Made by a program: the position numbers and the translations under genes
Notes under the pieces: model-generated
Told to the model about the DNA's origin: nothing
The model's input: the letters and a program-made list of their open reading frames with translations, nothing else
The model's database searches: none
Shown here: positions 20,920 to 36,289 of the stretch, in pieces
Numbering within the stretch: the first letter of the stretch is position 1
Layout of the letters: each line of letters begins with the position of its first letter
Source: an uncultured Serinicoccus sp.
GTDB lineage: Bacteria > Actinomycetota > Actinomycetes > Actinomycetales > Dermatophilaceae
Assembly: GCF_947500995.1 (NCBI RefSeq)
Contig: NZ_CANMUA010000008.1
Coordinates: 1 to 64,000, forward strand
Length of the DNA: 64,000 nt
Reading direction: 5' to 3'

Positions 20920-20955
20920 GGTGCGTATCGCGCAACCGTGCGCGTATCACGCAAC
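20920..20955. promoter_or_regulatory. Two tandem copies of the GTTGCG-type operator before the dehydrogenase gene
   Basis: On the minus strand the copies read GTTGCGCGATACGCACC (20936-20920) and GTTGCGTGATACGCGCA (20955-20939), 19 bp apart, 16-52 bp upstream of the ATG at 20904. The same 17-bp pattern covers the starts of the iclR gene at 21875 and the metF-like gene at 36172. Confidence 0.65.
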
Positions 20956-21080
20956 CAGTCTCATCCCGGGGGCACGAGGTGTCAAGGGTCCGCGCGGTCC
21001 GACGGGCACCCTGCGCGGCGACCTGCGGGTATGCCGCCGCCGCGCGCCGTGGTGCCCGTCCCGGCGGCTGGCGGCGCGGC

Positions 21081-21875
21081 TCAGGCCGCGTGCCAGCCCA
21101 GCCGGGCCGAGACGTCGCCGGCCGCCTGCAGGAGCAGCGGCACGATCTCATCGACGCGGGCCTGGTCGATCCGGAAGCTCGGCCCGGAGACGCTGACCGA
21201 GGCGCACACCTCCCCGTGCGCGTTGCGCACCGGTGCCGCCACCGCGGTCAGCCCGACGTCCAGCTCGTCGCGGGCGACGGCATACCCGTGGGCGACGACC
21301 TCGACGACCAGCTCCTCGAGCCGGCGAGGGTCGGTCACGGTCGCGTCGGTGTATGCCGTGAGCTCCCCCCAGGTGGCGCGTCGCTCGGTCGGGGACAGCT
21401 CGCTCACGAGGACCCGGCCGTTGGAGGTGGCGTGCAGCGGGATGTGCTGTCCGACCCAGTTGTAGGAGGTGATCGTCGAGGGACCGATGACCTGGTCGAT
21501 GTAGAGCGCCGAGCGGTCGCCGAGCACGGCGAGGTTGACCGTCTCGTTGGTCTGCGAGGCCAGCAGGCGGCAGACCGGGCGCGCCTCCTGCACGAGGTCG
21601 AGCCGGGCGCTGGTCGCCCCGGCCAGGCGCAGGATGCCCACCCCCAGCCGGACGCGGCCGCGCTCGGTCGGCTGCTCGACGAGGTCGTGGGCGGCGAGGG
21701 CCGCGACGAGCCGGCTCGCGGTCGACTTGTGCACCCCCAGCTGGGCGCCGATCTCCCCGACCCCGGCCTCGCCGCGGGCCAGGATCTCCAGGATGGTCAG
21801 CGCCCGGTCGACGGACTGGACGGCCCCCTGGCTGCGGGGCTCACCGGCGGGCGAGACGTCACTGTCGTTGCGCAT
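21081..21875 (-). CDS. IclR-family regulator, probable controller of the dehydrogenase-etf operon
   Basis: 264 aa. N-terminal winged HTH (VQSVDRALTILEILARGEAGVGEIGAQLGVHKSTASRLVAAL) and C-terminal IclR effector domain (ETVNLAVLGDRSALYIDQV, IPLHATSNGRVLVSEL, GYAVARDELDVGLTAVAAPV). It lies immediately upstream of, and on the same strand as, the dehydrogenase-etfBA operon. A TAGGGT box ends 6 nt before the ATG, so the transcript is probably leaderless, and a GTTGC-N7-GCAAC palindrome overlaps both the box and the start codon, indicating autoregulation. Confidence 0.9.
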   Translation of the reverse strand: MRNDSDVSPAGEPRSQGAVQSVDRALTILEILARGEAGVGEIGAQLGVHKSTASRLVAALAAHDLVEQPTERGRVRLGVGILRLAGATSARLDLVQEARPVCRLLASQTNETVNLAVLGDRSALYIDQVIGPSTITSYNWVGQHIPLHATSNGRVLVSELSPTERRATWGELTAYTDATVTDPRRLEELVVEVVAHGYAVARDELDVGLTAVAAPVRNAHGEVCASVSVSGPSFRIDQARVDEIVPLLLQAAGDVSARLGWHAA

Positions 21876-21887
21876 GCCGCAACCCTA
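21867..21887 (-). promoter_or_regulatory. Leaderless promoter overlapped by a GTTGC-N7-GCAAC operator (iclR)
   Basis: The palindrome GTTGCGGCATGCGCAAC (minus strand, 21883-21867) is centred on the start codon. The -10 TAGGGT (21887-21882) partly overlaps it. A bound regulator would block RNA polymerase directly. Confidence 0.6.
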
Positions 21888-21940
21888 CGCGCCCTGCGCA
21901 CAGATCGGGGGCGGACCCCGCCGGGCTGCAACCACCTCGG

Positions 21941-22651
21941 TCAAGGCACCGTCCGCAACCGCTGCGCCTCGAGTCCGTCCAGCAGCAGGTCGAGGGTGAA
22001 CTCGAACTCCGCCTGGCTGTCGCACCACCCGAGGACGTCCCCGTCGGCGGCGTGCAGCTCCGAGGCCACCATGGCGCTCAGGTGCGGCAGCGCGTCGGCC
22101 ATCGCCGTCAGCTCGGCCTCCGAGAGGTCGACGTCCGTGCTGCCCCCGGCCGTGACGGGCGAGAAGAGCTCCTGGGTGAAGCCGAGCGCCATCGACCCGA
22201 AGGAGTGCAGCGCTCGGTGCGCCAGGTCATACCCCACTCCCCCCTCGACCATCGTCGCCAGCACCTGCTCGAAGTAGGCGTAGACGCTCGGCGGCACCGA
22301 GGCGCGGCTGCTGACCAGTCCCGGGGTCCAGGGATGGCGCACCACGACCGTCCTCGCCGTGAGGAACCGCCGCCGGAGCGCGTCGCGCCAGTCGGCGTCG
22401 GCCGCCGCCTCCTCGCCCTGCGCCTCATCGGCCCGCGCCACGGCTGCCTCGATCTCGGCGACGACCGCCTCGACCAGGCCGTCGAGGAGAGCCTCCTTGC
22501 CCCGCACGTGGTGGTAGAGCGACATGGCCTCCACGCCCAGGTCGGCTGCCAGCCGGCGCATGGTCAGCGCCGGGACGCCGTCGGTGTCGGCGACGGCCAT
22601 GGCGGCCGACAGCACCCGCTCCCGGGTGAGGGGCGTCCTGCTCCGTGTCAC
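21941..22651 (-). CDS. TetR-family repressor
   Basis: 236 aa. The N-terminal HTH is typical (TRERVLSAAMAVADTDGVPALTMRRLAADLGVEAMSLYHHVRGKEALLDGL), and the C-terminal half looks like the TetR_C_1 ligand-binding domain found with tetracycline-type and multidrug regulators. The start is GTG with GGAGG 5 nt upstream. It is divergent from the DUF4386 membrane protein gene, and two TTAC-N3-GTA sites lie between them, so it most likely represses itself and that neighbour. Confidence 0.9.
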   Translation of the reverse strand: MTRSRTPLTRERVLSAAMAVADTDGVPALTMRRLAADLGVEAMSLYHHVRGKEALLDGLVEAVVAEIEAAVARADEAQGEEAAADADWRDALRRRFLTARTVVVRHPWTPGLVSSRASVPPSVYAYFEQVLATMVEGGVGYDLAHRALHSFGSMALGFTQELFSPVTAGGSTDVDLSEAELTAMADALPHLSAMVASELHAADGDVLGWCDSQAEFEFTLDLLLDGLEAQRLRTVP

Positions 22652-22687
22652 GTCGACCTCCGGGATCGGCTCGGCTCTTGACCTACC

Positions 22688-22716
22688 TTACATCGTATGG
22701 TTCCCTTACAACGTAA
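22688..22716. promoter_or_regulatory. Tandem TetR operator candidate
   Basis: TTACATCGTAT (22688-22698) and TTACAACGTAA (22706-22716) are 18 bp apart in the 87-bp TetR/DUF4386 divergent region. The second is a perfect TTAC-N3-GTAA palindrome and the first has one mismatch. They stand out as AT-rich in this GC-rich background. Confidence 0.65.
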
Positions 22717-22738
22717 GTCGCCCGCGAGAGGACCCGCC

Positions 22739-23440
22739 ATGACCACGACCACCAGCACACCGCCCCAGCCCGCCGCGCCGGGGCGGACCGCACCGCCCCT
22801 GGCGACGGCCCGCACCACGGGGTGGCTCTACCTCGGCCTGGGGGTGACCGGGATGCTCGGCTTCCTGCTCATCCGCCCTCGGGTCGTGGGAGCCGACGGG
22901 GCGAGCACCGTCGAGCTCCTGACCGCGCACGAGACCCTCGCCCGGGTCGGCGTCGTGGCCTACCTGGGCACCGTCGTCACCCAGGTCCTCGTCGCCCTGT
23001 GGTTCTTCCGGCTCTTCCGCCGCACCGACGCCTTCGTGGCGAGCACCCTGACCACGTTCGGTCTCTTCAACGCCAGCGTGGTGCTCGCCAGCGCCGCCGC
23101 GTCGGCCACGGCACTCGACCTGACGCCGCTGGGCCCCCAGGCCGCGGGTGAGGTGCACGCCCTCACCACGCTCGCGGAGAACCTCTGGGGTGTCGGCGCC
23201 GTCTTCTTCGGGCTCTGGCTGCTGCCCATGGGCATGCTCGCCCTGCGGGTGGGGATGCCGCGCCCGCTCGGGTGGGTGCTCCTCGTCGGTGGCGGGGGGT
23301 ATGTCGTCAGCTCGGTGCTCGGGTACCTCCTGCCCGACGCCGCGCTGGCTGCGGCGCTCCTCACGGTGCCCGCGACGGTGGGGGAGTTCTGGATGATCGG
23401 CTACCTGCTGCACGGGGGCGTCTTCCGCAGGGCCGCGTGA
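22739..23440 (+). CDS. DUF4386-family membrane protein
   Basis: 233 aa with about six hydrophobic segments after a ~25-residue Thr/Pro-rich start. The order of features (GWLYLGLGVTGMLGFLLIRPRVV, ARVGVVAYLGTVVTQVLVALWFFRLFR, GVGAVFFGLWLLPMGMLALR, PATVGEFWMIGYLLHGGV) matches the DUF4386 family, whose function is unknown. The ATG has GAGAGGA about 7 nt upstream. It is probably controlled by the divergent TetR gene. Confidence 0.82.
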   Translation: MTTTTSTPPQPAAPGRTAPPLATARTTGWLYLGLGVTGMLGFLLIRPRVVGADGASTVELLTAHETLARVGVVAYLGTVVTQVLVALWFFRLFRRTDAFVASTLTTFGLFNASVVLASAAASATALDLTPLGPQAAGEVHALTTLAENLWGVGAVFFGLWLLPMGMLALRVGMPRPLGWVLLVGGGGYVVSSVLGYLLPDAALAAALLTVPATVGEFWMIGYLLHGGVFRRAA

Positions 23441-23444
23441 GGGA

Positions 23445-23469
23445 GGTCCGCGCGGCCTCTGCGCGGACC
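23445..23469. terminator. Bidirectional hairpin between DUF4386 and the ECF sigma gene
   Basis: GGTCCGCGC and GCGCGGACC form a perfect 9-bp stem with a 7-nt loop between the two convergent stops. There is no T-tract, as is common for actinobacterial terminators. Confidence 0.6.
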
Positions 23470-23474
23470 GCAGC

Positions 23475-24716
23475 TCAGCGGTCCAGCTCCTCGATGAGGC
23501 CGTCGAGGTGGCGCTGCTCCCGCATGCTCCGCGTCAGCCTGGCCGCCTCGCCCCAGCTGCGCCGTGCGCCGTCGAGGTCACCGGCCCGGGCGAGCAGGTG
23601 CCCGCGCACCGCGGGCACGCGGTGCCACCTCCTGTCGGTCACCCGGTCCAGCACGGCCAGCCCGGCCGGGGCTCCCTCGACCTCCGCGGTCGCGGTGGCG
23701 AGGGCCACGGTGGTCGCGACCGACGGCGCGACGGCGTCCAGCATGCGGTAGAGGACGAGGATCTGTCGCCAGTCGGTGTCCTCCGGACGCGCGGCCTCGG
23801 CGTGCACCGCCGCGACGGCCGCCTGGAGCTGGAACTGACCCACCCCGCCGCGCGGCAGGCATACCTCGAGCAGGTGCACCCCCTCGCGGATGAGCGCGGG
23901 GTCCCACAGCCGCCGGTCCTGCCGCTCCAGCGGGACGAGGTCGCCGGCCGCGTCCGTCCGGGCCGGGGTGCGCGCCGCCGTGAGCAGCAGGAGCGCCAGC
24001 AGCCCGGCGTTCTCCGGGTCCTCCGGGCACGTGTCGTGGAGCACCCGCGCCAGCCGCAGGGCCTGCTCGACGAAGGCACCGTCCACGACGGTGTCACCGG
24101 AGCTGCGCTGGTGGCCCTCGGTGAAGACGAGCGAGACGACGTGGCGTAGGGCCGCCATGCGCTCCGGGAGCTCGGCAGGGTCGGGCGGCCCGAAGGTCGC
24201 GCCGCCGGAGGCCAGGGTGGCGCGTGCCCGGCTGATGCGCTGCGCCATCGTCGCCTCGGGCACGAGGAAGCCGGCCGCGATCTCCCGGGTGCTGAGTCCG
24301 CCCACGGCCCGCAGCGTCAGCGCCACCCGTGAGCTGGGCGACAGCACCGGGTGGTAGCACCGCAGCATCATCTCCATCACGTCGTCGGGGACGGTGACGG
24401 GCTCCTGCTCGTCCGTCGTGTGCACACCGCGGTGCAGCGCGTCCTCCTCGCGGGCGGCGACCTCCTCCCTGGCCTGCCGGGCCGCGTCGCTGCGCACCCG
24501 GTCGATGAGTCGACGGGACGCGACCCGCACCAGCCAGGCGCCCGGGTCGTCGGGCATGCCGTCCCGGGGCCACTGCTCGGCGGCCGCCAGCACGGCCTCC
24601 TGGGCGGCGTCCTCGCAGTCGCGCACATCACCGTGCCGGCGCGGCAGCGCCCTGACCACCCGCGGCCGGTGGGTGCGCCACGCCGCCTCCAGGGCAGGGT
24701 CAGTCGGCGTCGTCAC
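23475..24716 (-). CDS. ECF sigma factor with C-terminal TPR-like domain (ECF42 type)
   Basis: 413 aa, far longer than a simple ECF sigma. Region 2 is near the N-terminus (DCEDAAQEAVLAAAEQWPRDGMPDDPGAWLVRVASRRLIDRVR), region 4 is at ~115-190 (SRVALTLRAVGGLSTREIAAGFLVPEATMAQRISRAR), and the remaining ~220 residues are a helical, TPR-like extension (LLALLLLTAARTPAR, WRQILVLYRMLDAVAPS). This and the adjacent YciI/DGPF gene are the hallmarks of ECF42, which works without a classical anti-sigma. Of two adjacent GTGs, 24716 is better spaced from GGGAGG. It overlaps the 3' end of the YciI gene by 17 bp. Confidence 0.85.
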   Translation of the reverse strand: MTTPTDPALEAAWRTHRPRVVRALPRRHGDVRDCEDAAQEAVLAAAEQWPRDGMPDDPGAWLVRVASRRLIDRVRSDAARQAREEVAAREEDALHRGVHTTDEQEPVTVPDDVMEMMLRCYHPVLSPSSRVALTLRAVGGLSTREIAAGFLVPEATMAQRISRARATLASGGATFGPPDPAELPERMAALRHVVSLVFTEGHQRSSGDTVVDGAFVEQALRLARVLHDTCPEDPENAGLLALLLLTAARTPARTDAAGDLVPLERQDRRLWDPALIREGVHLLEVCLPRGGVGQFQLQAAVAAVHAEAARPEDTDWRQILVLYRMLDAVAPSVATTVALATATAEVEGAPAGLAVLDRVTDRRWHRVPAVRGHLLARAGDLDGARRSWGEAARLTRSMREQRHLDGLIEELDR

Positions 24717-25092
24717 CACCTCCCATGACCGGCCGCAGCTCGACGGTCTCGCCAGGGCCGCTGAAGGCCCGGGTGATCTCCTCGGCCCGCTCCTGCGACT
24801 CCACGTCGATGAGGAAGAACCCGGCGAGGTGCTCCTTGCCCTCGGCGTAGGGGCCGTCCGTGACGACCCGCTCCCCACCCGACCACCGGAAGAGCCGCGC
24901 GGCGGCCGGGTCGCCCAGCGCCTCGCCGCCGACGAGCTCGCCGCGGTCGCCGAGCTCGCCGAGCATCCGCTCGAAGTCGCCGTTGAGCCGCTCGCGCTCC
25001 TCCTGCGACTGCTCCTGGTAGGCGGGGAGGAAGTCGGACGTGGGGTGGCCCCAGGGCTGGGGGTTGGACTGGATGAGGATGACGTACTTCAT
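24700..25092 (-). CDS. YciI/DGPF-family protein paired with the ECF42 sigma factor
   Basis: 130 aa. YCII-related fold with the DGPF-type signature as TDGPYAEGKEHLAGFFLIDVES (DGPY instead of DGPF). Proteins of this family are encoded next to ECF42 sigma factors and are thought to be their regulated partners; the biochemical role is unsettled. The ATG has AAGGAG 6 nt upstream. The stop overlaps the sigma gene, so the two are co-translated. Confidence 0.85.
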   Translation of the reverse strand: MKYVILIQSNPQPWGHPTSDFLPAYQEQSQEERERLNGDFERMLGELGDRGELVGGEALGDPAAARLFRWSGGERVVTDGPYAEGKEHLAGFFLIDVESQERAEEITRAFSGPGETVELRPVMGGGDDAD

Positions 25093-25185
25093 GCGGGCTC
25101 CTTGGTCGTGGCGTGCGGTTACGCGCCGCCGGTCCGGCGACGTCCACCCAGGACGTCGGAGCGGGCGGGCGGATCTCGACATGGG

Positions 25186-26352
25186 TCAGGTGCGCTCGAG
25201 CACCTCCACGGACAGCACCGTCGGGAGGTGCCGGGCGACCTCCGCCCAGCTCTCCCCCTCGTCCAGGCTGGCGAAGACCGAGCCGGTGTTGGTGCCGAAG
25301 TAGAGCCCCGCCGGGTCGCCGGCGTCGCCCGCCATCGCCTGGCGCAGCACGGTGAAGAAGCACGACTCCTGGGGCAGCCCGGCCCGCTGCGCCTCCCACG
25401 TCGAGCCGCCGTCGGTGGAGCGCCACACCGCGGCGGCGGCGTCCGGCGGGTACCGGCCTTCCATGTCCCCGTTGAGCGGGATGGTCCAGATGGTGTCGGG
25501 GTCGCGCGGGTGGACCCGCATCGGGAAGCCGAAGGTGGAGGGCAGCCCGGCGGTGATGTCGCTCCAGGTGAGGCCGCCGTCGCCGGAGCGCCACACGCCG
25601 ACGTGGTTGCGCTGGTAGAGCACGTCGCCCGGCCCGGGCGCCCTGACGATGTGGTGCACGCACAGGCCCACCTCGCCGCCCCCCGGTCCCCCCGGGTGGT
25701 CAACCGCGGCGGCGGCGTCCGGCTCGTCGGGCAGGGCCAGCGCGTTGCGCCGCTCCCACTGGACCCCGGCGTCCTTGGACGCGAAGACCCCGGCGGCGGA
25801 GATCCCGAGCCACACCCGGGACGGGTCGCCGGGGTCGGCCAGGATCGTGTGCAGCACCAGCCCCGCCGCGCCCGGGTTCCACTCCTCCGCCGACGGGTGC
25901 CGGCGCAGGCTCTCGACCTCGGCCCAGGTCACCCCGCCGTCGTCGCTGGCGAGCAGCGCCGCCGGCTTGGTGCCGGCGTACAGCCGGTCCCCGGCCAGGC
26001 CGAGGGACCACACCTGGCTGAACTCCTCGCCGAACGGCACGTCCTGGGGGCTCCACCCGACCGCGGCGGCGAACTCGGGGTCGGCCGCGGCCCACGCGTC
26101 CATGGCGCCGGTCGTCAGCCGGCTGAGCTCCCAGGTGCCGCCGCCGTCGGTGGAGCGCCACACGCCCGCACCCGACCACTCACCGCCGCCGCCTGCCCAG
26201 ATCGTCCCGGTCACGGGGTCGCCGACGACGTGGTTGATCGGCCACCCGTCGCAGAAGGGGCCCCGCACCGCCCAGCCGACGTCCTCGTCGCGCCGCTCGA
26301 GGACGAACGCCCCCTTGGTCGTCCCGACGAGCAGCACCGGTCGCCTCGCCAT
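25186..26352 (-). CDS. BNR/Asp-box beta-propeller protein (sialidase-like fold)
   Basis: 388 aa with at least five Asp-boxes (STDGGGTW, SDDGGVTW, SGDGGLTW, STDGGSTW, SLDEGESW) spaced along the protein, indicating a propeller of the WD40/YVTN/BNR glycosidase-like group. There is no signal peptide, so it looks cytosolic. The arginine triad and Tyr/Glu pair of true sialidases are not obvious, so an enzymatic role is uncertain. It is 93 bp upstream of the YciI-sigma pair on the same strand and could share regulation. Confidence 0.75.
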   Translation of the reverse strand: MARRPVLLVGTTKGAFVLERRDEDVGWAVRGPFCDGWPINHVVGDPVTGTIWAGGGGEWSGAGVWRSTDGGGTWELSRLTTGAMDAWAAADPEFAAAVGWSPQDVPFGEEFSQVWSLGLAGDRLYAGTKPAALLASDDGGVTWAEVESLRRHPSAEEWNPGAAGLVLHTILADPGDPSRVWLGISAAGVFASKDAGVQWERRNALALPDEPDAAAAVDHPGGPGGGEVGLCVHHIVRAPGPGDVLYQRNHVGVWRSGDGGLTWSDITAGLPSTFGFPMRVHPRDPDTIWTIPLNGDMEGRYPPDAAAAVWRSTDGGSTWEAQRAGLPQESCFFTVLRQAMAGDAGDPAGLYFGTNTGSVFASLDEGESWAEVARHLPTVLSVEVLERT

Positions 26353-26465
26353 GGCTCCGCCCTCTCCGCGCCGCCGCCGTGGCGGCGCCTCGACCTGATC
26401 CTGGCACGTCCCACCGACCGACGTCAGGAATGCGCCTCGGGTCGAGGGTGGGGCAGCAGAGGGCG

Positions 26466-26840
26466 TCAGGGAGTCGGAGGGCGGGTCCCCTCGGGTGGCT
26501 CGGTCTCGCAGTCGGCCCACACCTCGACCATCTCCGCAATGACCCCGTCACGCGCGGTCACGAACATCGCGACCTCGAAGTGCGAATCGGCACCCTCGGA
26601 GGTGCCGGTGACGTGCGCCCGCCCGGCCACCCGGTCACCGGCCCCGACGACCTCCTCCAGCCGCATCCGGCCGAAGCCGGGGTAGTCAGCGTTGAAGCGC
26701 ACCCAGGAGTCGCGGTCGAAGGTCTCACCCGTGTGCACCAGCCGGGACCGGAAGTCCGGCGCCAGCAGGGCAGGCAGGCCGGACCACCGACGGTCGTCGA
26801 TCGTCTCGACCAACGCCCGGAGCAGCGAGACGGCATCCAC
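26466..26840 (-). CDS. NTF2/SnoaL-like small protein
   Basis: 124 aa from GTG 26840, with a fold pattern of the nuclear transport factor 2-like family: a helix (VSLLRALVETIDDRRWSGLPALLAPDFRSR), then strands (VAGRAHVTGTSEGADSHFEVAMFVTARDGVIAEMVEVWAD). Members bind small ligands or act as isomerases/hydrolases; no function can be assigned. TAGCAT sits 7 nt before the GTG, so a leaderless start is preferred; an ATG at 26870 would add ten residues. Confidence 0.75.
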   Translation of the reverse strand: MDAVSLLRALVETIDDRRWSGLPALLAPDFRSRLVHTGETFDRDSWVRFNADYPGFGRMRLEEVVGAGDRVAGRAHVTGTSEGADSHFEVAMFVTARDGVIAEMVEVWADCETEPPEGTRPPTP

Positions 26841-26847
26841 GAGGCCG

Positions 26848-26853
26848 ATGCTA
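26848..26853 (-). promoter_or_regulatory. -10 box of a probable leaderless promoter (NTF2-like gene)
   Basis: TAGCAT on the minus strand, 7 nt before the GTG at 26840. Confidence 0.45.
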
Positions 26854-26885
26854 GGCCAGGCCCACGCCATACCCGCTGAGTCTGC

Positions 26886-27728: not shown

Positions 27729-27735
27729 GTGTCGG

Positions 27736-27741
27736 ATTATC
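27736..27741 (-). promoter_or_regulatory. -10 box of a probable leaderless promoter (AraC gene)
   Basis: GATAAT on the minus strand, 7 nt before the ATG at 27728; the closest match to the sigma-70 consensus in the window. Confidence 0.55.
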
Positions 27742-27779
27742 ACAAGAGGTGGCACCAGTAGAGCGGTCATGGTGGCTGC

Positions 27780-28334: not shown

Positions 28335-28369
28335 GCGGTCCTCACCGCCCTCTCGGGTAGGCCGACGGC

Positions 28370-29809
28370 TCAGTCGCCCAGCTCGGCCCGGCGCCGCACG
28401 ACGAAGGCCTCCAGCTCCTCCCGCACGGCGTCGTCCAGCGGTGGCGCCTCGTAGGCCTCCAGCCGGGAGGCGACGACGGCCGAGGCGCGGGTCGCGGTGT
28501 CCGGCGACCCCTTGGAGGTCCACCGCTCGAAGTTGTCCGCGCTGGACAGGAACGGCCGGTAGAAGCAGGTCCGGAAGCGCTCCATGGTGTGCATCGCCCC
28601 GAGGAAGTGCCCGCCGTGCCCGACCTCGACGTGCGCGTCGAAGGCCAGCGACCCCTCGTCGATCTCCAGCGGCCGGAACTCGTGCTGCAGCATCTCGATG
28701 ATCTGGCAGTCGACGACGAACTTCTCGAAGCTGCTGACCAGGCCGCCCTCGAGCCAGCCGGCCGAGTGCATGACCCAGTTGGTGCCGGCGAGGAAGGTCG
28801 GGAGCAGCGTCATCGTCGCTTCGTAACCCGCCTGGGCGTCCGGCACCTGGGAGCTGGTCAGCCCGCCGCCGCCGCGGAACGGCAGCCCGAAGTGCCGCGC
28901 GATCTGCCCGGTGCACAGCAGCCCCAGACCGGACTCCGGCGTGCCGAAGGTCGGCGACCCCGACTGCATGTCGATGGTGGACAGGAACGACCCGAAGATC
29001 ACCGGCGTCCCGGGCCGGATGGTCTGAGCCAGCGCGATCCCGGAGAGCGCCTCGGTGATCTGCTGGGTCAGGGCCGCGGGGATGGTCACCGGTGACATCG
29101 CCCCCATGAGGATGAACGGGGTGAGGACGACGGGCTGCCCGGCGCGGGCGTACTCGAAGAGCGCCTCGAGCATGCGGTCGTCCCAGCGCAGCGGGCTGTT
29201 GCAGTTGATGAGCGAGATCGAGGCCGGGGTGACCTCGATCGCCTCGCGCCCGCCGAAGAGGATCTCCCCCATCGCGATGACGTCGCGGGCGTTCTGCCCC
29301 GACACCACGTTGCCCATGTAGATCTTGTCGGTCTGCGTCATGAGCGCGAGCGTCATGTCCAGGTGCCGCGAGTCCAGCGGCAGGTCGTTGGGCTCGCAGA
29401 CGACACCACCGGCGGAGTCCAGCACGTCGAAGCTCTGCGCCAGCCGGGCGAAGCGCTGGTAGTCGTCGAAGGTGCCGTCCCGCCGCGCGTCACCCTCGCG
29501 CACGAAGGGCGGGCCGTAGACCGCGCCGAAGGCCATGCTGTCGCCGCCGATGTGGACCGAGCGCTGCGGGTTGCGCGCCTGCACGTCGAACTCCCGCGGC
29601 GCCTTCGCGACCTGCTCCAGCACCCAGTCCGGGTCGAGGTATGCCGTCTCCCCCTCGACCTTCTGCCCCGCCTGGCGCAGCAGCTCGAGGGCGTCCTCGC
29701 TCGCGAACTGCACCCCCACCTCGGTCATCAGCCGGCGCCACGCGCCATCGAGCTGGTCCATCGCCTGCTCCGAGAGCACCTCGTACCTCGGCATGCGGTT
29801 GACGAACAT
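28370..29809 (-). CDS. MttB-superfamily (non-pyrrolysine) corrinoid-dependent methyltransferase
   Basis: 479 aa trimethylamine-methyltransferase-family protein with no in-frame amber codon, so it belongs to the non-pyrrolysine branch that includes glycine betaine methyltransferases. The family core is FGTPESGLGLLCTGQIARHFGLPFRGGGG followed by TSSQVPDAQAGYEATMTLLP. It would transfer a methyl group from a quaternary amine to Co(I) of the corrinoid protein encoded divergently. The dimethylglycine-dehydrogenase-like operon nearby points to glycine betaine, but carnitine, choline or proline betaine are not excluded. GGAGGAG lies just before the ATG. A 32-bp palindrome separates it from iclR. Confidence 0.88.
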   Translation of the reverse strand: MFVNRMPRYEVLSEQAMDQLDGAWRRLMTEVGVQFASEDALELLRQAGQKVEGETAYLDPDWVLEQVAKAPREFDVQARNPQRSVHIGGDSMAFGAVYGPPFVREGDARRDGTFDDYQRFARLAQSFDVLDSAGGVVCEPNDLPLDSRHLDMTLALMTQTDKIYMGNVVSGQNARDVIAMGEILFGGREAIEVTPASISLINCNSPLRWDDRMLEALFEYARAGQPVVLTPFILMGAMSPVTIPAALTQQITEALSGIALAQTIRPGTPVIFGSFLSTIDMQSGSPTFGTPESGLGLLCTGQIARHFGLPFRGGGGLTSSQVPDAQAGYEATMTLLPTFLAGTNWVMHSAGWLEGGLVSSFEKFVVDCQIIEMLQHEFRPLEIDEGSLAFDAHVEVGHGGHFLGAMHTMERFRTCFYRPFLSSADNFERWTSKGSPDTATRASAVVASRLEAYEAPPLDDAVREELEAFVVRRRAELGD

Positions 29810-29876
29810 CCCACTCCTCCTCCCCGCCCCCGGGCGGACCCGGGCGACGCGCCGGACGCCGCACCCTTGCGCCGTC

Positions 29877-29908
29877 TCACGATATGGGCATACGCTCCCA
29901 CATAGTGA
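29877..29908. promoter_or_regulatory. 32-bp palindrome between the mttB-like and iclR genes
   Basis: TCACGATATGGG and CCCACATAGTGA flank CATACGCT; the arms match at 10 of 12 positions. It lies 68 bp before the methyltransferase ATG and 41 bp before the iclR ATG. It is a good candidate operator for the IclR protein, controlling both directions. Confidence 0.65.
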
Positions 29909-29948
29909 GCACTCAGGGAAGAGGGCTCAGAGAAGAGGGACACGAGGA

Positions 29949-30707
29949 ATGGCGACTCAGGGGACCCAGGCGATCGACCGGGCGGCGGACCTCGTCGTGC
30001 GTGTCGTCCAGTCGCCCGACCCGCTGAGCACCCCCGACCTGGCCCAGGCCACCGGCCTGGCTCGCTCGACCGTGTCCCGACTGCTGTCAGCCCTGGAGCG
30101 CTCGCACCTCATCTCGCGCGACGTCGAGGGCAACGGCTACCTGCCCGGCCCGCTCTTCGAGCAGTACGCCGCCCGCACCGACACCCGCGACTGGCTCGCC
30201 CGCGAGGCGCAGCCGACGATGGCCGCCCTCAGCGAGGCCACCGGCGAGACCATCAACCTGGGCGTGCCGGTCGGCACCTCCGTGGTGCAGATCGCCCAGG
30301 TGGACTCCACCTTCCTCATCGGCAGCCGCGACTGGGTCGGGGTGAACCTGCCGGCCCACTCCTCCTCGCTCGGCAAGACCCTGTACGCCTTCGGCGCGCT
30401 GGAGCTGCCCGACCGGCTGCCCTCGCTCACCGCGCGCACGGTCACCGACCCGGACGCGCTGCGCGCCGAGTTCGAGGTCATCCGGGCCCGGGGCTGGGCG
30501 ACCACCGTCGACGAGCTGGAGGTGGCCCTCACCGGCATCGGCGCCCCCGTCCGGCTCCGCGGCCGCCTCGTCGCGGCCATCGGCGTGTCCGGCCCCACCT
30601 CCCGACTGTCCGGCCGGCTCGACGAGCTCGGCCGCCTCGTCTCCGGGCACGCGGACGACCTGTCCGGGCGCCTCACCGAGCCGCACGTGATGAAAGGTGC
30701 CTCATGA
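29949..30707 (+). CDS. IclR-family regulator of the corrinoid methyltransferase cluster
   Basis: 252 aa. HTH (AIDRAADLVVRVVQSPDPLSTPDLAQATGLARSTVSRLLSALERSHLI) and IclR effector domain (GETINLGVPVGTSVVQIAQVDSTF, NLPAHSSSLGKTLYAF, GWATTVDELEVALTGIGAPV). It is the first gene of the operon iclR-corrinoid protein-methyltransferase-RACo-DUF1638, each linked by 4-bp overlaps except the last, and is divergent from the mttB-like gene. An inducer such as the methylated amine is likely. Confidence 0.9.
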   Translation: MATQGTQAIDRAADLVVRVVQSPDPLSTPDLAQATGLARSTVSRLLSALERSHLISRDVEGNGYLPGPLFEQYAARTDTRDWLAREAQPTMAALSEATGETINLGVPVGTSVVQIAQVDSTFLIGSRDWVGVNLPAHSSSLGKTLYAFGALELPDRLPSLTARTVTDPDALRAEFEVIRARGWATTVDELEVALTGIGAPVRLRGRLVAAIGVSGPTSRLSGRLDELGRLVSGHADDLSGRLTEPHVMKGAS

Positions 30708-31381
30708 CTCCCGACGAGCTCCTGCAGGGCCTCTACGACCGCACCCTCGTGGGCAACGGTCCAGGCGTCCTGGAGCTGACCCACCAGGCCCTCAGCATGG
30801 AGATGGAGCCGCAGGTGCTCCTCTTCGACGCCCTCATCCCCGCCCTGGAGGAGGTGGGGGCGCGCTTCGAGCGGGGCGACTTCTTCGTGCCGGAGATGCT
30901 CATCGCGGGCAAGGCCATGGCTGGCTCGATGGAGGTGCTGCGACCCCTGCTGGCCGATACCGGCGTGCAGACCGTCGGCACCTTCCTCATGGGCACGGTC
31001 AAGGGTGACGTCCACGACATCGGCAAGAACCTCGTCAACATCATGCTGGAGGGCGCCGGCTTCGAGGTCATCGACCTCGGCGTGCAGGTGGCGCCGGAGA
31101 AGTTCGTGGCCGCCATCGAGGAGCACCAGCCCGACGTCGTCGGCTTCTCGGCCTTCCTCACGACGACCATGCCGATGTTCAAGGCCAACATGAACGCCCT
31201 CGAGAAGGCGGGCATCCGCGACGAGGTCATCGTCATGGTCGGCGGCGCGCCGGTCACGCAGGAGTACGCCGACGCCGTGGGGGCCGACGGCTACGCCGCC
31301 GACGCCTCCGCGACGGTCAAGAAGGCGAAGGCCCTGCTCAAGGACCGCCGCGCCCGCACCGGGGCGGCGGTGCCGGTATGA
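30704..31381 (+). CDS. Corrinoid (B12-binding) methyl-carrier protein
   Basis: 225 aa. A B12-binding-2 helical domain (~residues 1-90) is followed by a Rossmann-type cobalamin domain with the diagnostic GDVHDIGKNLV motif; His104 is the lower axial cobalt ligand. It continues VIDLGVQVAPEKFVAAIEEHQPDVVGFSAFLTTTMP and VMVGGAPVTQEYADAVGADGYAADA, as in MtgC/MttC proteins. It shuttles the methyl group between the MttB-like enzyme and the methyl-THF methyltransferase encoded next. Start and stop overlap its neighbours. Confidence 0.93.
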   Translation: MTPDELLQGLYDRTLVGNGPGVLELTHQALSMEMEPQVLLFDALIPALEEVGARFERGDFFVPEMLIAGKAMAGSMEVLRPLLADTGVQTVGTFLMGTVKGDVHDIGKNLVNIMLEGAGFEVIDLGVQVAPEKFVAAIEEHQPDVVGFSAFLTTTMPMFKANMNALEKAGIRDEVIVMVGGAPVTQEYADAVGADGYAADASATVKKAKALLKDRRARTGAAVPV

Positions 31382-32283
31382 GCCCGGCGTGGGGGTCGGC
31401 GGCGCTGGCCGGGGGCCCGCTGCACACCGTGCTCCGCTCGGCCACCAAGGAGGTCGTCATCGGGGCCGACCAGCGCTTCTGCGTCATCGGTGAGCGCATC
31501 AACCCCACCGGTCGCAAGGTCTTCCAGACCCAGCTGCGCGAGGGCGACCTGTCGGCGATCGAGAAGGACGTCGAGGCGCAGGTCCTCGGCGGCGCCGACG
31601 TGCTCGACGTCAACATGGGCGTGCCGCTCACCGACGAGGCCGACCTGCTCGTCCGGGCGATCCAGGTCGTGCAGGCCCGCACCGACCTGCCGGTCTGCAT
31701 CGACTCCTCCGTCGTCGAGGCCCTGGAGGCCGGGCTGGAGGCCTACCAGGGCCGGGCGCTGGTCAACTCGGTGACCGCCGAGGACGAGCGGCTCGAGGCG
31801 ATCCTGCCGCTGGTCAAGAAGCACGACGCCGCGGTCATCGCGCTGCCCAACGACGCCGACGAGATCCCCATGGAGTCGGGCAAGCGCCTGGAGCTGGTGG
31901 AGAAGATCGTCCGGGTCGCGACGCAGGAGTACGGCATCGCGCTGCAGGACATCGTCATCGACCCGCTGGCCATGCCGATCGGCGCCGACAGCACCGTCGG
32001 CGTGACGACCCTGGAGACCGTCGCCGGGGTGCACGAGCGCTGGGGCCTCAACATGACCTGCGGCGCCTCCAACGTGTCCTTCGGCATGCCGGGCCGGCAC
32101 GCGATCAACGGCGCCTGGCTGCCGCTCGCGATGGCCGCGGGCATGACCAGCGCGATCATGGACGCCCGGACCGCCGAGGTGGTGGACTCGGTGCGTGCCG
32201 CCGACCTGCTCCTCGGGCACGACGAGTGGGGTATGTCGTGGATCGCCACGCACCGCGCGCGGCAGGCGGCCGCTGCGACGTGA
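31378..32283 (+). CDS. Methyltetrahydrofolate:corrinoid methyltransferase (pterin-binding, MtgA/MtvA type)
   Basis: 301 aa. Pterin-binding TIM-barrel: RFCVIGERINPTGRKVFQTQL, GGADVLDVNMGVP, LPVCIDSSVVEALEAGL, RALVNSVTAEDERLEAILPLV and NMTCGASNVSFGMPGR are all characteristic. In this context it should move the methyl group from methyl-Co(III) to tetrahydrofolate, giving 5-methyl-THF. The first ~25 residues have no family match. Overlaps with the genes on both sides indicate one operon. Confidence 0.92.
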   Translation: MSPAWGSAALAGGPLHTVLRSATKEVVIGADQRFCVIGERINPTGRKVFQTQLREGDLSAIEKDVEAQVLGGADVLDVNMGVPLTDEADLLVRAIQVVQARTDLPVCIDSSVVEALEAGLEAYQGRALVNSVTAEDERLEAILPLVKKHDAAVIALPNDADEIPMESGKRLELVEKIVRVATQEYGIALQDIVIDPLAMPIGADSTVGVTTLETVAGVHERWGLNMTCGASNVSFGMPGRHAINGAWLPLAMAAGMTSAIMDARTAEVVDSVRAADLLLGHDEWGMSWIATHRARQAAAAT

Positions 32284-34337
32284 GGCAGGAGCAGGCGGGC
32301 GCGGCCACGGCGCGTGGCCCGGTGCAGCGCGCGGCGGGCGCGGCCGCCGAGGTGGAGGACGTCGGCGCGGAGGAGACGGTCGACGACACCCAGCCCGCGC
32401 CGGAGGAGCAGCAGGGCGAGACGCCCGTCGCCACGGAGGACGAGTGGCCGGAGCGGGTCGACCTGTCCTACACCCCGTCGGGGGCGACCGTGCGCGTGCC
32501 GGCGGGGGTGAACCTCTTCGAGGCGGCGAGCTGGAACGGCATCGCCGTGGACTCGACCTGCGGCGGGCACGGGACGTGCCGCAAGTGCAAGCTGCGGGTC
32601 ACCGAGGGCGACTGGATGCCCCCGGTAACGCCGCAGGACGAGCGCACCTTCTCCGCAGACCAGCTGGACGCGGGCTGGCGGCTGGGATGCCTCGCCACGG
32701 CCTGGGGGTCGATGACCGTCGACGTGCCGCCGCTCACCACCCGCCCCAAGGCCTCCACCGTGGGAGTGGGCCGGCAGGTCATCCTGCGGCCCTCGGTGCA
32801 GAAGCGCTACGTCGAGCTCGCCGAGCCCACCCTCGCCGACCAGCGACCCGACCTCACCCGGGTGCTCGACGCCATCGAGGACCTCGAGCCGACACCGGAG
32901 CTGCACGCGCTGCGCCGGGTGGGGCCCGCGTTGCGGTCGGCGGACCACAAGGTGACCGCGGTCGTCGCGGACGACCGGCTCATCGACGTCGAGGCGGGCG
33001 ACACCACGGGGCGCTCCTTCGGGCTGGCGGTCGACCTCGGCACCACGACCGTGGTGGCGACGCTGATGGACCTCACGACCGGCACCCCCGTGGCGGTCGC
33101 GTCGATGCTCAACGCCCAGCAGCCCTTCGGCGGCGACGTCATCTCCCGGATCAGCGCGACGATGCTCGACCCCCAGGCGCTCCCGCGGCTGCGGGCCCGC
33201 GCGCACGAGACGCTGGCCGAGCTGGCGGCCGAGGTGTGCGCCGAGGCCGGGGTCGAGCCCGGCGAGGTCTACGACGTGGCGATCGCCGGCAACGCCACGA
33301 TGGTCGCGCTGCTGCTGGGCCAGGACCCCGAGCCCCTCGGCGTGGCGCCCTTCATCCTGGCCGCCGACCGCTGGCCCCTGGTCCCGGCCGTCGAGGTCGG
33401 CCTAAGCTCCTCGGTGCACCCCGCGGCCCGGGCCTTCCTGCACCCGGCCCTCGGGGCCTACGTCGGCGGCGACATCGTCGCCGGCATCCAGGCCTCGGGG
33501 ATGGACCGCGACTCGCGGGTGCGGCTCATGATCGACATCGGCACCAACTGCGAGATCGTCCTGTCCGACGGCACCCAGCTGGTCGCGACGGCCGCTCCTG
33601 CGGGGCCGGCCTTCGAGGGCGCCTCGATCCGGTGCGGCATGCGGGCGGCGGACGGAGCGGTGGAGACGGTGAAGCTGCTCGCCGACTGGCCCGAGGCCGC
33701 CACCGGCGAGGAGGAGCTGCCGGACCCGGTGCAGCTCGGGGTGATCGGTGACGTCGAGCCGCGCGGGCTCTGCGGCTCCGGCCTGGTCGACGCGGTGGCC
33801 GAGCTCAGCCGGGTGGGCCTGCTGGACCCCTCCGGCCGCCTCGTCGACGAGGAGACCGCCCGGTCGCTGGCCCCGGCGCTGGCCGACCGGCTGGCCAGCA
33901 TCGGCGAACCGGGTGAGCGGGTCTTCGTGCTCTACCGCGAGTCGCCGGACGCCCCGGCGGCCGAGTCGGTCTACCTCTCCCAGCGCGACGTGCGCGAGCT
34001 GCAGTTCGCCAAGGCCGCCATCTCGACCGGGTGGACCCTGCTGCTGGAGGAGGTCGGCCTGGAGCCCCGCGAGGTGCAGCAGGTGCTGCTCGCGGGGTCG
34101 TTCGGCTCCTACCTCTCGCCCGCCGCCGCGGTGCGGATCGGGCTGGTCCCGAAGCTGCCCACGCTGCGCATCGTGGCGGCCGGCAACATCGCCGGGGAGG
34201 GCGCCAAGATGGTGCTGCTCTCGGCGACCGAGCGCACCGGCGCCGAGGCCCTGCTCGAGGGGGTGCGCTATGTCGAGCTCTCCGACCGCAGCGACTTCAA
34301 CGACCGCTTCGTCGACCAGCTCTCCTTCCCGGCCTGA
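32280..34337 (+). CDS. RACo-type corrinoid reactivation ATPase with N-terminal 2Fe-2S ferredoxin domain
   Basis: 685 aa from a GTG that overlaps the previous stop. After a ~60-residue acidic/Ala-rich tail comes a plant-type ferredoxin domain with Cys94, Cys100, Cys103 and Cys137, then a linker and an ASKHA ATPase domain (AVDLGTTTVVATLMDL, MIDIGTNCEIVL, GLCGSGLVDAVAEL, VLLAGSFGSYLSPAAA). Such proteins use ATP to reduce inactive Co(II) back to Co(I) in corrinoid proteins. Its presence shows that cobalamin oxidation is an expected problem, in keeping with an aerobic host. Confidence 0.92.
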   Translation: MRQEQAGAATARGPVQRAAGAAAEVEDVGAEETVDDTQPAPEEQQGETPVATEDEWPERVDLSYTPSGATVRVPAGVNLFEAASWNGIAVDSTCGGHGTCRKCKLRVTEGDWMPPVTPQDERTFSADQLDAGWRLGCLATAWGSMTVDVPPLTTRPKASTVGVGRQVILRPSVQKRYVELAEPTLADQRPDLTRVLDAIEDLEPTPELHALRRVGPALRSADHKVTAVVADDRLIDVEAGDTTGRSFGLAVDLGTTTVVATLMDLTTGTPVAVASMLNAQQPFGGDVISRISATMLDPQALPRLRARAHETLAELAAEVCAEAGVEPGEVYDVAIAGNATMVALLLGQDPEPLGVAPFILAADRWPLVPAVEVGLSSSVHPAARAFLHPALGAYVGGDIVAGIQASGMDRDSRVRLMIDIGTNCEIVLSDGTQLVATAAPAGPAFEGASIRCGMRAADGAVETVKLLADWPEAATGEEELPDPVQLGVIGDVEPRGLCGSGLVDAVAELSRVGLLDPSGRLVDEETARSLAPALADRLASIGEPGERVFVLYRESPDAPAAESVYLSQRDVRELQFAKAAISTGWTLLLEEVGLEPREVQQVLLAGSFGSYLSPAAAVRIGLVPKLPTLRIVAAGNIAGEGAKMVLLSATERTGAEALLEGVRYVELSDRSDFNDRFVDQLSFPA

Positions 34338-34374
34338 CGCCTCCGCAGGGCGGCTACGGCCCGGCGGAGCACGC

Positions 34375-34965
34375 GTGGCGCTCGTCGCCTGCGGGGCCCT
34401 GGCGACCCACGCCGCGGCCGCCGCGGCACGGCATACCCCTCCCCTGCCCGTCGACGTGCACCCGCTGCCACCCCTCCTGCACAACCACCCGGAGCGGATC
34501 GCCGGCGAGGTCGAGGCGGTCGTCGACCGGCTCGCCGGACGCTACGACCGGGTCGCCGTCGGGTATGCCGACTGCGGCACCTACGGCGCGCTGGACGCGC
34601 TGTGCGCCCGCCGCGGGGTCGCGCGGCTGCCCGGGCTGCACTGCTACGACCTGTACGCCGGAGAGGCGCGCGTCGCCGCGCTGCTGGAGGAGGAGCCCGG
34701 GACCTACCTGCTCACCGACTTCCTGGTCCGCAGCTTCGACCGCACGGTGTGGGCCGAGCTGGGGCTGGACCGGTACCCCGGGCTGCGGGACGACTACTTC
34801 GGCCACTACACGCGGTGCGTCTGGCTGGCCCAGGAGCCCGACGACCCCGAGCTCACCGCGCTGGCCCTGCGCGCCGCAGGCCGGCTGGGGCTGGCGCTGC
34901 AGGTGGAGCGGACCGGCACCGCCGGCCTCGACGACGCCCTCGCCCGCCTCGTCCTCGGGCCCTGA
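34375..34965 (+). CDS. DUF1638-family protein, last gene of the corrinoid operon
   Basis: 196 aa. It starts MALVACGALATHAAAAAARH and contains LPPLLHNHPERIAGEVEAVVDR, VAVGYADCGTYGALDALC and LPGLHCYDLYAGEARVAALLEEEPGTYLLTDFLVRSFDRTVW, the pattern of DUF1638 proteins, which often lie beside MttB-type methyltransferase genes. The conserved Cys and His residues suggest metal or corrinoid handling, but the function is not known. The GTG has GGAG 5 nt upstream and follows the RACo stop by 37 bp. Confidence 0.8.
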   Translation: MALVACGALATHAAAAAARHTPPLPVDVHPLPPLLHNHPERIAGEVEAVVDRLAGRYDRVAVGYADCGTYGALDALCARRGVARLPGLHCYDLYAGEARVAALLEEEPGTYLLTDFLVRSFDRTVWAELGLDRYPGLRDDYFGHYTRCVWLAQEPDDPELTALALRAAGRLGLALQVERTGTAGLDDALARLVLGP

Positions 34966-35018
34966 CGTCGCGGTGGCCTGACCAACGGCTGGCCGACCGT
35001 CCCCCCTCGCCCCTGCCT

Positions 35019-35106
35019 CCGACCGAGCGCCGCGAATGGTTCCCCACCGACCGAGCGACGCGAATGGTTCCCCACCGACCGACCGAGCGACGCGAATGGT
35101 TGTCCC
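35019..35106 (+). repeat. Three GAATGGTTCCCC tandem units
   Basis: Units start at 35019, 35047 and 35079 and contain CCGACCGAGCG followed by MCGCGAATGGTT. The first unit differs from unit 1 of the E2-internal repeat at about one base in 24. The third unit is preceded by an extra CCGA. Confidence 0.8.
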
Positions 35107-35176
35107 CTGACCCGCCGACCTTCGTGCCGTCCTCAGGACGTGTCCGCGCGCAGTCTTCGGCCCCGCCCGGAAGGTC

Positions 35177-35241
35177 GCGACTGCACAGGGTATGTCGTGG
35201 AATCGCCCTCGCGGGCGACGTATCCGCTGCAGTCGCGCACC
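35177..35241. repeat. 65-bp hairpin repeat, copy 1
   Basis: Inverted arms of 21 bp (35177-35197 and 35216-35236, four mismatches, some G-U compatible) around an 18-nt loop. The 65 bp match copy 2 at 47090-47154 except at three positions. It lies between convergent genes and could act as a terminator or a REP-type element. Confidence 0.8.
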
Positions 35242-35314
35242 ACGGGACACGGGATCGGGCCGCATCGGACGTCGTGACGAATCAGAGGAGCATCCTGGTC
35301 CGCGTTCGGGCCGC

Positions 35315-36172
35315 CTAGCCTGAAGGCCGGCGCAGCGCCGCGACCTCGGCGAGCTGCTCGCGCCGCCACGCCTCGGTCTTCTCGACCTGGTTGAAGCTGT
35401 AGAGGTGCAGGCCGCCGATGCCCAGGCGCTCGGTGCCGGCGAGCGCGGCGATGCGGTGCGCGAACCGGGTGGTCGAGAAGCCGGGCAGCGCGATCCGGGT
35501 GAAGACCCCGCGCTGCTTGCGCAGGAAGCGCATGGAGTCGCCGACCCCGATGACCGTCGCCATCTTCAGCAGCTTGGCCGGGTCGACCGGGCCGGGCACC
35601 CCGACCCACACCGGGTGCTCGATGCCGCGTCGGCGGACCCGCTCGAGCCACTGACCGACCTGCTCGTCGTCGAAGGTCATGTTGGACACGATGTCGGTGG
35701 CGTAGCGCCGCTTGTCCCACATGGACTGGACGATGACGTCGTCGTCGATGCCCGGGTGGGACTCGGGGTAGCCGGTGATCCCCACCCGCTCGAACGGCCC
35801 GCCCAGCTCGGCCAGCTCCACCAGCAGGTCCAGGGCGTTGCCGAACGTGGTGTCCGTCGGCGTGGCGTCCCCGCCGGGCACGAAGATCTCGGTGACACCC
35901 GCCTCGCGCAGCCGCGCGACGAGGTCGGGCAGCTCGGCCCGCTCGACCATGCGCGCGGCCAGGTGGGGCACGACGTGGTAGCGGTCGGCCAGCTGCTCGG
36001 TGAGCGCCAGCGTGGCCTCCAACCCCTTGGCGGGGGACGCCGTGACGGTGACGGTCCGGCCCGGCTCGACGTGCGCGTGCACCTGCTCGGCCACGGAGTC
36101 TGTCGGCAGGATCTCCAACCGCGCGCCCAGCAGCAGCCGCTCCAGCGCCGCCGAGGGATACTTGTTGCTCAT
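35315..36172 (-). CDS. metF: Methylenetetrahydrofolate reductase-family protein
   Basis: 285 aa MTHFR TIM-barrel. It shows the folate/FAD pattern: LEILPTDSVAEQV, TVTASPAKGLEATLALTEQLA, VVPHLAARMVERAELPDLVARLREAGV, ERVGITGYPESHPGIDDDVI, and the C-terminal GGLHLYSFNQVEKTEAWRR. In this locus the likely direction is oxidation of 5-methyl-THF to methylene-THF during methyl catabolism rather than methionine synthesis; this is inferred from context and from the operator shared with the dimethylglycine-dehydrogenase operon. The start is ATG 36172 (a GTG at 36175 precedes it), without a Shine-Dalgarno. Confidence 0.85.
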   Translation of the reverse strand: MSNKYPSAALERLLLGARLEILPTDSVAEQVHAHVEPGRTVTVTASPAKGLEATLALTEQLADRYHVVPHLAARMVERAELPDLVARLREAGVTEIFVPGGDATPTDTTFGNALDLLVELAELGGPFERVGITGYPESHPGIDDDVIVQSMWDKRRYATDIVSNMTFDDEQVGQWLERVRRRGIEHPVWVGVPGPVDPAKLLKMATVIGVGDSMRFLRKQRGVFTRIALPGFSTTRFAHRIAALAGTERLGIGGLHLYSFNQVEKTEAWRREQLAEVAALRRPSG

Positions 36173-36180
36173 CACGCAAC
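36164..36180 (-). promoter_or_regulatory. GTTGC-N7-GCAAC operator over the metF start codon
   Basis: GTTGCGTGATGAGCAAC on the minus strand (36180-36164) spans the ATG. Its first ten bases are identical to one of the copies before the dehydrogenase gene, and its symmetry matches the site over the iclR start at 21875. Confidence 0.65.
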
Positions 36181-36289
36181 GCGATTCGCCATACGCACAA
36201 CCCCAGCGTAGAAGCAGCCCGGCGCCCTGACAAGAGCCGTCCGGGCGAGATCCACCCCGGCCGACCCTCGTCGGTCGGGGCCCGGCCCG

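Follow-up and report, generated by a model that had tools for sequence, protein, structure and literature searches.

Our results show that three promoters in a 64-kb stretch of DNA from an uncultured Serinicoccus sp. (contig NZ_CANMUA010000008.1, positions 1 to 64,000; here called the window) carry a common paired operator that is kept in related genomes. The promoters belong to iclR1, encoding an IclR-family regulator (IclR1), to an operon encoding a dimethylglycine dehydrogenase and an electron transfer flavoprotein (ETF), and to metF, encoding a methylenetetrahydrofolate reductase (MTHFR)-like protein. As seen across relatives, the operator unit consists of two GTTGCG-N5-CGCAAC boxes with a centre spacing of 19 bp, and the same motif with the same spacing is conserved before the orthologous genes. 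Computation gave the motif itself, the fact that it comes in pairs, where it lies, how well it is conserved and which genes it accompanies. We consider it likely that IclR1 is an autoregulated repressor of a betaine and one-carbon (C1) oxidation regulon, reading paired boxes 19 bp apart.

The best place in the genome for the paired pattern is upstream of the dehydrogenase gene (boxes 20939-20955 and 20920-20936, together 20920..20955, minus strand), with 0 mismatches. The second best, with 1 mismatch, lies on the minus strand over the iclR1 start, where a box with perfect 6-bp arms (21867-21883) is accompanied by a weaker box, TGTGCGCAGGGCGCGTA, at 21886-21902. The third pair covers the metF start (36164..36199, minus strand), with one box at 36164-36180 and a second, TGTGCGTATGGCGAATC, at 36183-36199, and was identified by matrix and conservation. 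An earlier note on this DNA had listed four 17-mers as copies of a single 17-bp operator. Their coordinates and strands were confirmed, as GTTGCGNNATNNGC matched the window at exactly these four places and nowhere else, compared to a shuffle expectation of 0.04, and none of 100 shuffles of the window had four matches. The sites are real, but the actual unit is a pair of boxes, and the second boxes at iclR1 and metF had been overlooked. The description of the iclR1 and metF palindromes as centred on the start codon is correct for iclR1 (A of the ATG at 21875), and for metF only if translation starts at ATG 36172 and not at GTG 36175; an ATG is found at the 36172 position in 26/28 aligned genes. 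In the whole genome (3.8 Mb) GTTGCGNNATNNGCNNC was found three times, every time inside the window, and the reversed-pattern control was not found at all. TTGCNNNATNNGCAA had three matches in the own genome, at iclR1, at metF and on contig C10. Loose single boxes were not enriched, since GTTGCGNNATNCGCAAC with up to 2 mismatches gave 15 matches in the whole genome versus 12 for the control, and such a search is uninformative beyond the three sites.

The same 149 family genomes were searched for MetF, for the dehydrogenase and for IclR1, and 200 bases were taken upstream of the best loci returned, own genome included (30 dehydrogenase, 28 metF and 30 IclR1 regions). A paired site of at least 16/24 was present in 26/30 dehydrogenase, 27/28 metF and 19/30 IclR1 regions, compared to 0.8-1.4% of shuffles. 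The conservation before orthologous genes on which the earlier note had made its idea depend is thus seen at all three, though less uniformly at iclR1. Six of the dehydrogenase regions belong to distant homologues (36-38% identity), and three of these six have the pair. When pairs of at least 18/24 were sorted by spacing, 25/30 dehydrogenase regions had a pair at 19, while none of the other spacings between 17 and 30 was found in more than 3; for metF the numbers were 21/28 and at most 2. The metF pair has an identical position relative to the start in 26/28 regions, and in 11 genera, represented by one genome each, the majority letter reached 86% in the operator columns versus 48-51% upstream and 59% in the following coding columns. 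In Phycicoccus the IclR1 boxes seem to be 18 bp apart when judged by eye.

Matrix scores gave the same picture. With a matrix from other genera only, the top three places in the window were the three promoters (36.1, 35.8 and 20.1), and the next rows (5.1, 4.9 and -1.9) were shifted readings of the same three sites. A matrix made from the dehydrogenase promoters of other genera alone placed metF second in the window with a score of 34.4, whereas outside the three promoters no place scored above -1.4, and a matrix from metF promoters alone gave the dehydrogenase 32.1 and iclR1 just 9.6. When 12 Mb of random Markov sequence was scored with a matrix that had the window's own sites among its training data, the highest score was 17.9, so that nothing came to 20.

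The three genes also travel together. At presence cut-offs that we set ourselves (at least 57% identity for IclR1, 50% for metF and 75% for the dehydrogenase), IclR1 and metF occurred together in 24/149 genomes (exceptions 1 and 3), IclR1 and the dehydrogenase in 22/149 (exceptions 3 and 2), and metF and the dehydrogenase in 23/149 (exceptions 4 and 1). The exceptions G128, G033, G087 and G118 may be due to assembly gaps or incomplete genomes. The paired pattern with at most one mismatch was detected in 12/13 genomes with IclR1, perfect in 7 of them, and in 3/17 genomes without the three genes, perfect in 0; the reversed control pattern was found in 3/13 and 6/17, respectively.

IclR1 (21081..21875, minus strand) contains an IclR helix-turn-helix (HTH) domain (PF09339, 7.7e-13) and an IclR_C domain (PF01614, 1.9e-43), which places it in the IclR family. 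Among the NCBIfam models BhcR and PcaR score best, and all equivalog cut-offs shown were missed (BhcR 171 of 350 bits, PcaR 133 of 284.75, KdgR 128 of 275), so that IclR1 belongs to none of these equivalogs. The closest named relatives are from Serinicoccus (94 to 76%), followed by Ornithinimicrobium and Phycicoccus, and in 4 same-genus genomes IclR1 adjoins metF. The HTH motif VHKST, which we take to be the recognition helix, is present in 30/30 aligned homologues, and the longer VHKSTASR in 25/30. From the site at its own promoter, the co-occurrence, the well kept HTH helix and the lack of the rival regulator IclR2 (29949..30707, plus strand) in relatives that keep the operator, we infer that IclR1 is the reader of the paired operators. 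A single box is also present inside the iclR1 coding region (21215-21231, score 11.3); it has no 19-bp partner in the top list and is possibly a chance match.

The position of the pairs suggests how IclR1 could act. Upstream of the dehydrogenase a promoter-like TTGACA (20985-20980) is separated by a 17-bp spacer from GAGACT (20962-20957; whole element 20957..20985, minus strand), and the pair begins 1 base downstream of this -10-like element. At metF a TTGTCA (36233-36228), again with a 17-bp spacer, precedes TACGCT (36210-36205; 36205..36233, minus strand), and here the pair begins five bases downstream. Both promoters are proposed from the sequence and from likeness in relatives; a strict promoter scan reported none at either place. 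In the relatives the distance from the picked -10 element to the start of the pair is 0-12 bases in 26/26 dehydrogenase promoters and -1 to 12 bases in 24/27 metF promoters. The paired operators at the dehydrogenase and metF would then cover the expected transcription start, and the start codon would likewise be covered at metF and iclR1. Since the pair lies just after the -10-like element and over the transcription start, IclR1 is predicted to be a repressor that blocks RNA polymerase. Through the site over the iclR1 start it would also limit its own synthesis, and some metabolite of betaine/C1 breakdown would release it from the DNA. Members of the IclR family bind as dimers or as dimers of dimers and may serve as repressors, as activators or in both roles (PMC4340878).

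The genes behind two of the operators point to oxidation of methyl groups. The predicted dimethylglycine dehydrogenase/oxidase type enzyme (18307..20904, minus strand) has DAO, FAO_M, GCV_T and GCV_T_C domains, and its best solved relative, matched over the full length (E 3.6e-151), is the N,N-dimethylglycine oxidase 1pj5, presumably from Arthrobacter. Unlike in that comparison, the window enzyme is followed by two ETF genes on the minus strand, for the beta subunit (17537..18307, labelled from gene order and the best NCBIfam matches) and the alpha subunit (16548..17540, from domain search), which suggests a dehydrogenase that makes use of ETF and not of oxygen. For MetF (35315..36172, minus strand, likely start ATG 36172) the best solved relative is 7xg9 (E 1.1e-27, versus 7.9e-6 for 1v93), which we take to be the MTHFR of Sphingobium lignivorans SYK-6 that oxidises methyl-tetrahydrofolate (methyl-THF), and this would place the window protein in the methyl-THF-oxidising subfamily; with the fadh2 equivalog it scores 55 of 293.7 bits. 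In two relatives (loci L066 and L067) formate-THF ligase and DmdA-like genes lie alongside metF. Judged from gene context, the window MetF probably runs in the oxidative direction, from methyl-THF to methylene-THF. The subfamily has been described for SYK-6, where it is tied to lignin O-demethylation (PMC13001107), whereas the window MetF is placed with betaine-type demethylation.

Between the two ends of the regulon sits a corrinoid demethylation cluster (28370-34965) with a regulator of its own, IclR2, found by domain search at the start of the corrinoid operon. On one side of the gap is an mttB gene (28370..29809, minus strand) for a non-pyrrolysine MttB-superfamily methyltransferase of the glycine-betaine type: the protein matches PF06253 with 614 bits, has an open 479-aa frame with no in-frame TAG, scores below the cut-off of TIGR02369 (288 of 525 bits), and matches the 'Glycine betaine methyltransferase' 9yce over its full length (1.1e-118), third after the 'putative' enzymes 4yyc and 2qne. 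On the other side, on the plus strand, IclR2 is followed by genes for an MtgC-like corrinoid protein (30704-31381), a methyl-THF:corrinoid methyltransferase type protein (MeTr, 31378-32283), a corrinoid reductive activase (32226-34337) and a DUF1638 protein (about 34375-34965). No GTTGCG pair was found in 15 mttB promoters, that of the window included, or in 18 control regions upstream of the activase gene. Instead, the gap between mttB and iclR2 holds a different palindrome, CTCACGATATGGGC-N6-TCCCACATAGTGAG (29876..29909, no strand assigned), a candidate IclR2 operator. In the form TCACNATGTGGAA-N5 to N8-TTCCACATNGTGA it reaches at least 18/24 letters in 14/15 of these gaps, whereas other genes do not exceed 17, scored with an arm consensus drawn from the same 15 sequences. 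This suggests that the corrinoid cluster is under the separate control of IclR2 with a different operator. The likeness of GCGTATG in the second metF box to the mttB/iclR2 gap was considered as a shared element and rejected, as the conserved palindrome there differs. An open reading frame (ORF) at 34354-35265 (minus strand) is antisense to the DUF1638 gene and likely spurious, despite homology matches in relatives; its 20 control regions had no paired site, but since it is probably no gene these represent internal sequence only. A BNR-repeat protein gene (25186-26520) also lies near the regulon in the window, and is found in loci L045-L048 as well.

Putting the genes in order, a betaine methyl group would pass to methyl-THF by the corrinoid MttB/MtgC/MeTr system under IclR2, and dimethylglycine, the MttB product, would be oxidatively demethylated by the ETF-linked dehydrogenase. 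MetF, whose gene shares its operator with the dehydrogenase, would oxidise the methyl-THF to methylene-THF. In some relatives the methyl-THF may come from a DmdA-like enzyme whose gene bears the paired operator.

In the relatives, strong paired sites were found mostly at betaine/C1 genes, with a few at genes of no obvious C1 role. The matrix scan covered the window and 45 loci picked around metF or earlier matches, and it is therefore no unbiased genome scan. A paired site precedes the BCCT betaine transporter gene in 7/10 genomes with a close copy in the scanned loci (G083, G106, G140, G051, G103, G012 and G045, not G060, G056 and G006), proV in 4/8 (G083, G106, G140 and G146) and the betaine-aldehyde dehydrogenase gene in 1/3 (G051). 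A site before the formate-THF ligase gene is present in G083 and G051, and the pattern search adds G106, G120, G140, G146 and G103. In G051, the sole genome examined for it, a site was found at the gene of the formate-dehydrogenase gamma subunit. The earlier note had proposed one IclR regulon joining demethylation of an N-methyl amine to oxidation of methyl-THF. This is supported by the conservation and by the betaine/C1 sites in relatives, except that the corrinoid cluster appears to be controlled separately; overall the comparison supports the regulon well, and that interpretation seems largely right.

A paired site is also found before the DmdA-like gene in 5/6 loci (L047-L050 and L067), and in the sixth, L066, the site precedes the upstream metF instead. 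In the same-genus loci L047-L050 the metF neighbourhood has no MttB/MtgC/MeTr cluster; here the DmdA-like gene, with its paired operator, stands beside iclR1-metF, and the dehydrogenase and metF sites are kept. The predicted product (L047:15276-16676, L050:15312-16817) is a corrinoid-free protein with a single GCV_T domain, and the L047 copy scores 231 bits against the cut-off of 410 for dimethylsulfoniopropionate (DMSP) demethylase. When 9 ORFs next to the DmdA-like genes of L066 and L067 were scanned, none was recognised as a DMSP gene. The corrinoid and DmdA-like systems were found together in none of 27 neighbourhoods, which span at most 20 kb, are in several cases cut by contig ends and were the only parts of the genomes searched. 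One might then propose that the regulon reveals where the first betaine demethylase has been exchanged, with the DmdA-like protein acting as a THF-dependent glycine-betaine demethylase in place of the corrinoid system. We regard this as doubtful, and the protein could equally be a DMSP demethylase.

Several observations weigh against a simple IclR1 regulon. The iclR1 promoters are less uniform than the others (19/30), some with a second box at chance level, and their spacing is less sharp, with pairs of at least 18/24 in 14/30 regions at 19 and in up to 5 at other spacings. The metF site of the window has 3 mismatches to the paired pattern and is distinguished only by matrix and conservation, and with up to 3 mismatches the pattern is no commoner in the genome than its control (110 versus 116). 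The Fisher values of the co-occurrence (below 1e-20) take no account of kinship. IclR1 is present without a close dehydrogenase or a full metF in G022, a real exception, and metF without a detected IclR1 in G128 and G033. Among the pattern matches in the relatives, TTGCGCTCCTCGCGGTC... is seen repeatedly, in the control genome G032 as well as in G106 and G022, and seems unrelated, and others have no gene assignment (G006 contigs C242, C21 and C237, G022 C3, G095 C114 and G145 C28). The matrix sites in L199 (carboxymuconolactone decarboxylase family) and L202 (amino acid permease) have no clear C1 role. In the own genome neither the formate-THF ligase gene nor any of the five BCCT genes has a paired site scoring at least 8; these genes were ruled out as members, and the regulon in this genome may therefore comprise three units only. 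The -10 and -35 elements of the relatives were sought only beside the operator, and many of the metF -35 picks are poor. The formate-THF ligase pair of Phycicoccus (L200:4967, L217-L220), unlike those at other promoters, is located upstream of a -35-like element and therefore fits poorly with simple repression.

This last site, together with the known ability of IclR proteins to act in either direction (PMC4340878), is what speaks for IclR1 as an activator or dual regulator and no plain repressor. We find this possible but rather unlikely, because the pairs lie after the -10 element at the dehydrogenase (26/26) and at metF (24/27), which is the place of a repressor, with the reservation that the elements were picked near the operator. 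The idea that the four 17-mers look alike by chance and were picked out by eye can practically be dismissed. They were selected after the sequence had been read, and loose single boxes are not enriched in the genome, but the conservation outside the genus, the window and genome counts, the matrices and the spacing all contradict chance. For metF in particular, the site could owe its conservation to the context of the start codon (Met-Ser-Asn) and to translation signals, and resemble the operator by accident, and half of one metF box (ATGAGCAAC) is indeed coding and conserved. However, conservation across the 11 genera extends to the non-coding GTTGC half and to the second box, 19 bp further upstream, and the matrix from dehydrogenase promoters of other genera alone ranked metF second in the window, far above any place outside the three promoters (34.4 versus -1.4), which makes this explanation very improbable.

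A real operator could also be read by another protein, most plausibly IclR2, or by another IclR of the genome. In favour of IclR2 are its shorter distance to metF and its place at the head of the operon expected to form methyl-THF. The genome also encodes two more IclR-like proteins, which match IclR2 at 33%. Five same-genus genomes (G145, G047, G127, G139 and G133) argue against it, since none has an IclR2 orthologue (nothing above 37% identity), and all keep paired sites: the dehydrogenase pair in 5/5 and the metF pair in 4/5. The remaining genome, G133, has a different metF and a paired site before its DmdA-like gene instead. The mttB/iclR2 gap, moreover, has its own conserved palindrome (14/15) and no GTTGCG pair (0/15), and the presumed recognition helices differ, with VHKST in 30/30 IclR1 rows and ARST or AKST in the IclR2 rows. 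IclR2 was rejected as regulator of the GTTGCG pairs for its absence from these relatives and the different palindrome at its own gap, and a reader other than IclR1 is in general improbable. Taken together, the evidence favours IclR1 as an autoregulated repressor, where its binding, the repression, the effector, the substrates and the direction of the reactions are what we infer from the comparison.

IclR1 has its HTH and IclR_C domains in common with the local catabolic regulators BhcR, PcaR/PcaU, KdgR and E. coli IclR, and differs from them in its putative targets, the betaine/C1 oxidation genes. The closest precedent is NdgR, an IclR protein of Streptomyces coelicolor that binds upstream of metF (SCO2103) (PMC4340878). 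Like the proposal for IclR1, NdgR is an actinobacterial IclR-family protein with metF as a target and other targets across the genome, so that an IclR acting on an actinobacterial metF is not new as such. However, NdgR recognises a 15-bp motif of the GTCCAC-N3-GCGGAC type (PMC4340878), and when the motifs were compared by eye the window metF was preceded by GTTGCG-type boxes and not by an NdgR-type motif. In that paper metF is grouped with methionine, most of the other NdgR targets are genes for branched-chain amino acids and for sulphur or methionine, and the word 'betaine' is absent from the main text (PMC4340878). The two cases thus differ in motif, in companion genes and in what metF probably does. 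A literature search on IclR found no description of this regulon, with the check at text level limited to PMC4340878.

For the pathway, the nearest parallel is Ruegeria pomeroyi, where MetF2 has been proposed to oxidise methyl-THF during growth on betaine (PMC12478193). Its MtgB/MtgC/MtgD system has in common with the window an MttB-superfamily enzyme, a corrinoid protein and a pterin-binding methyltransferase, and works aerobically, with RamA/DUF1638 reactivation, a metF paralogue, and induced BCCT and dimethylglycine steps (PMC12478193). Unlike Ruegeria, the window is from an actinobacterium, and its metF shares an operator with an ETF-linked dimethylglycine dehydrogenase; the term 'IclR' is absent from the main text of the Ruegeria paper (PMC12478193). 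For actinobacteria, our results thus provide a specific candidate regulator, with its operator, for both the demethylation of dimethylglycine and the oxidation of methyl-THF. As sites were found in relatives at genes for betaine uptake, formate-THF ligase and a DmdA-like enzyme, the operator can be used to find genes of the pathway. The results further suggest that control of an aerobic corrinoid betaine pathway is divided, with two of its parts under different IclR proteins and different operators.

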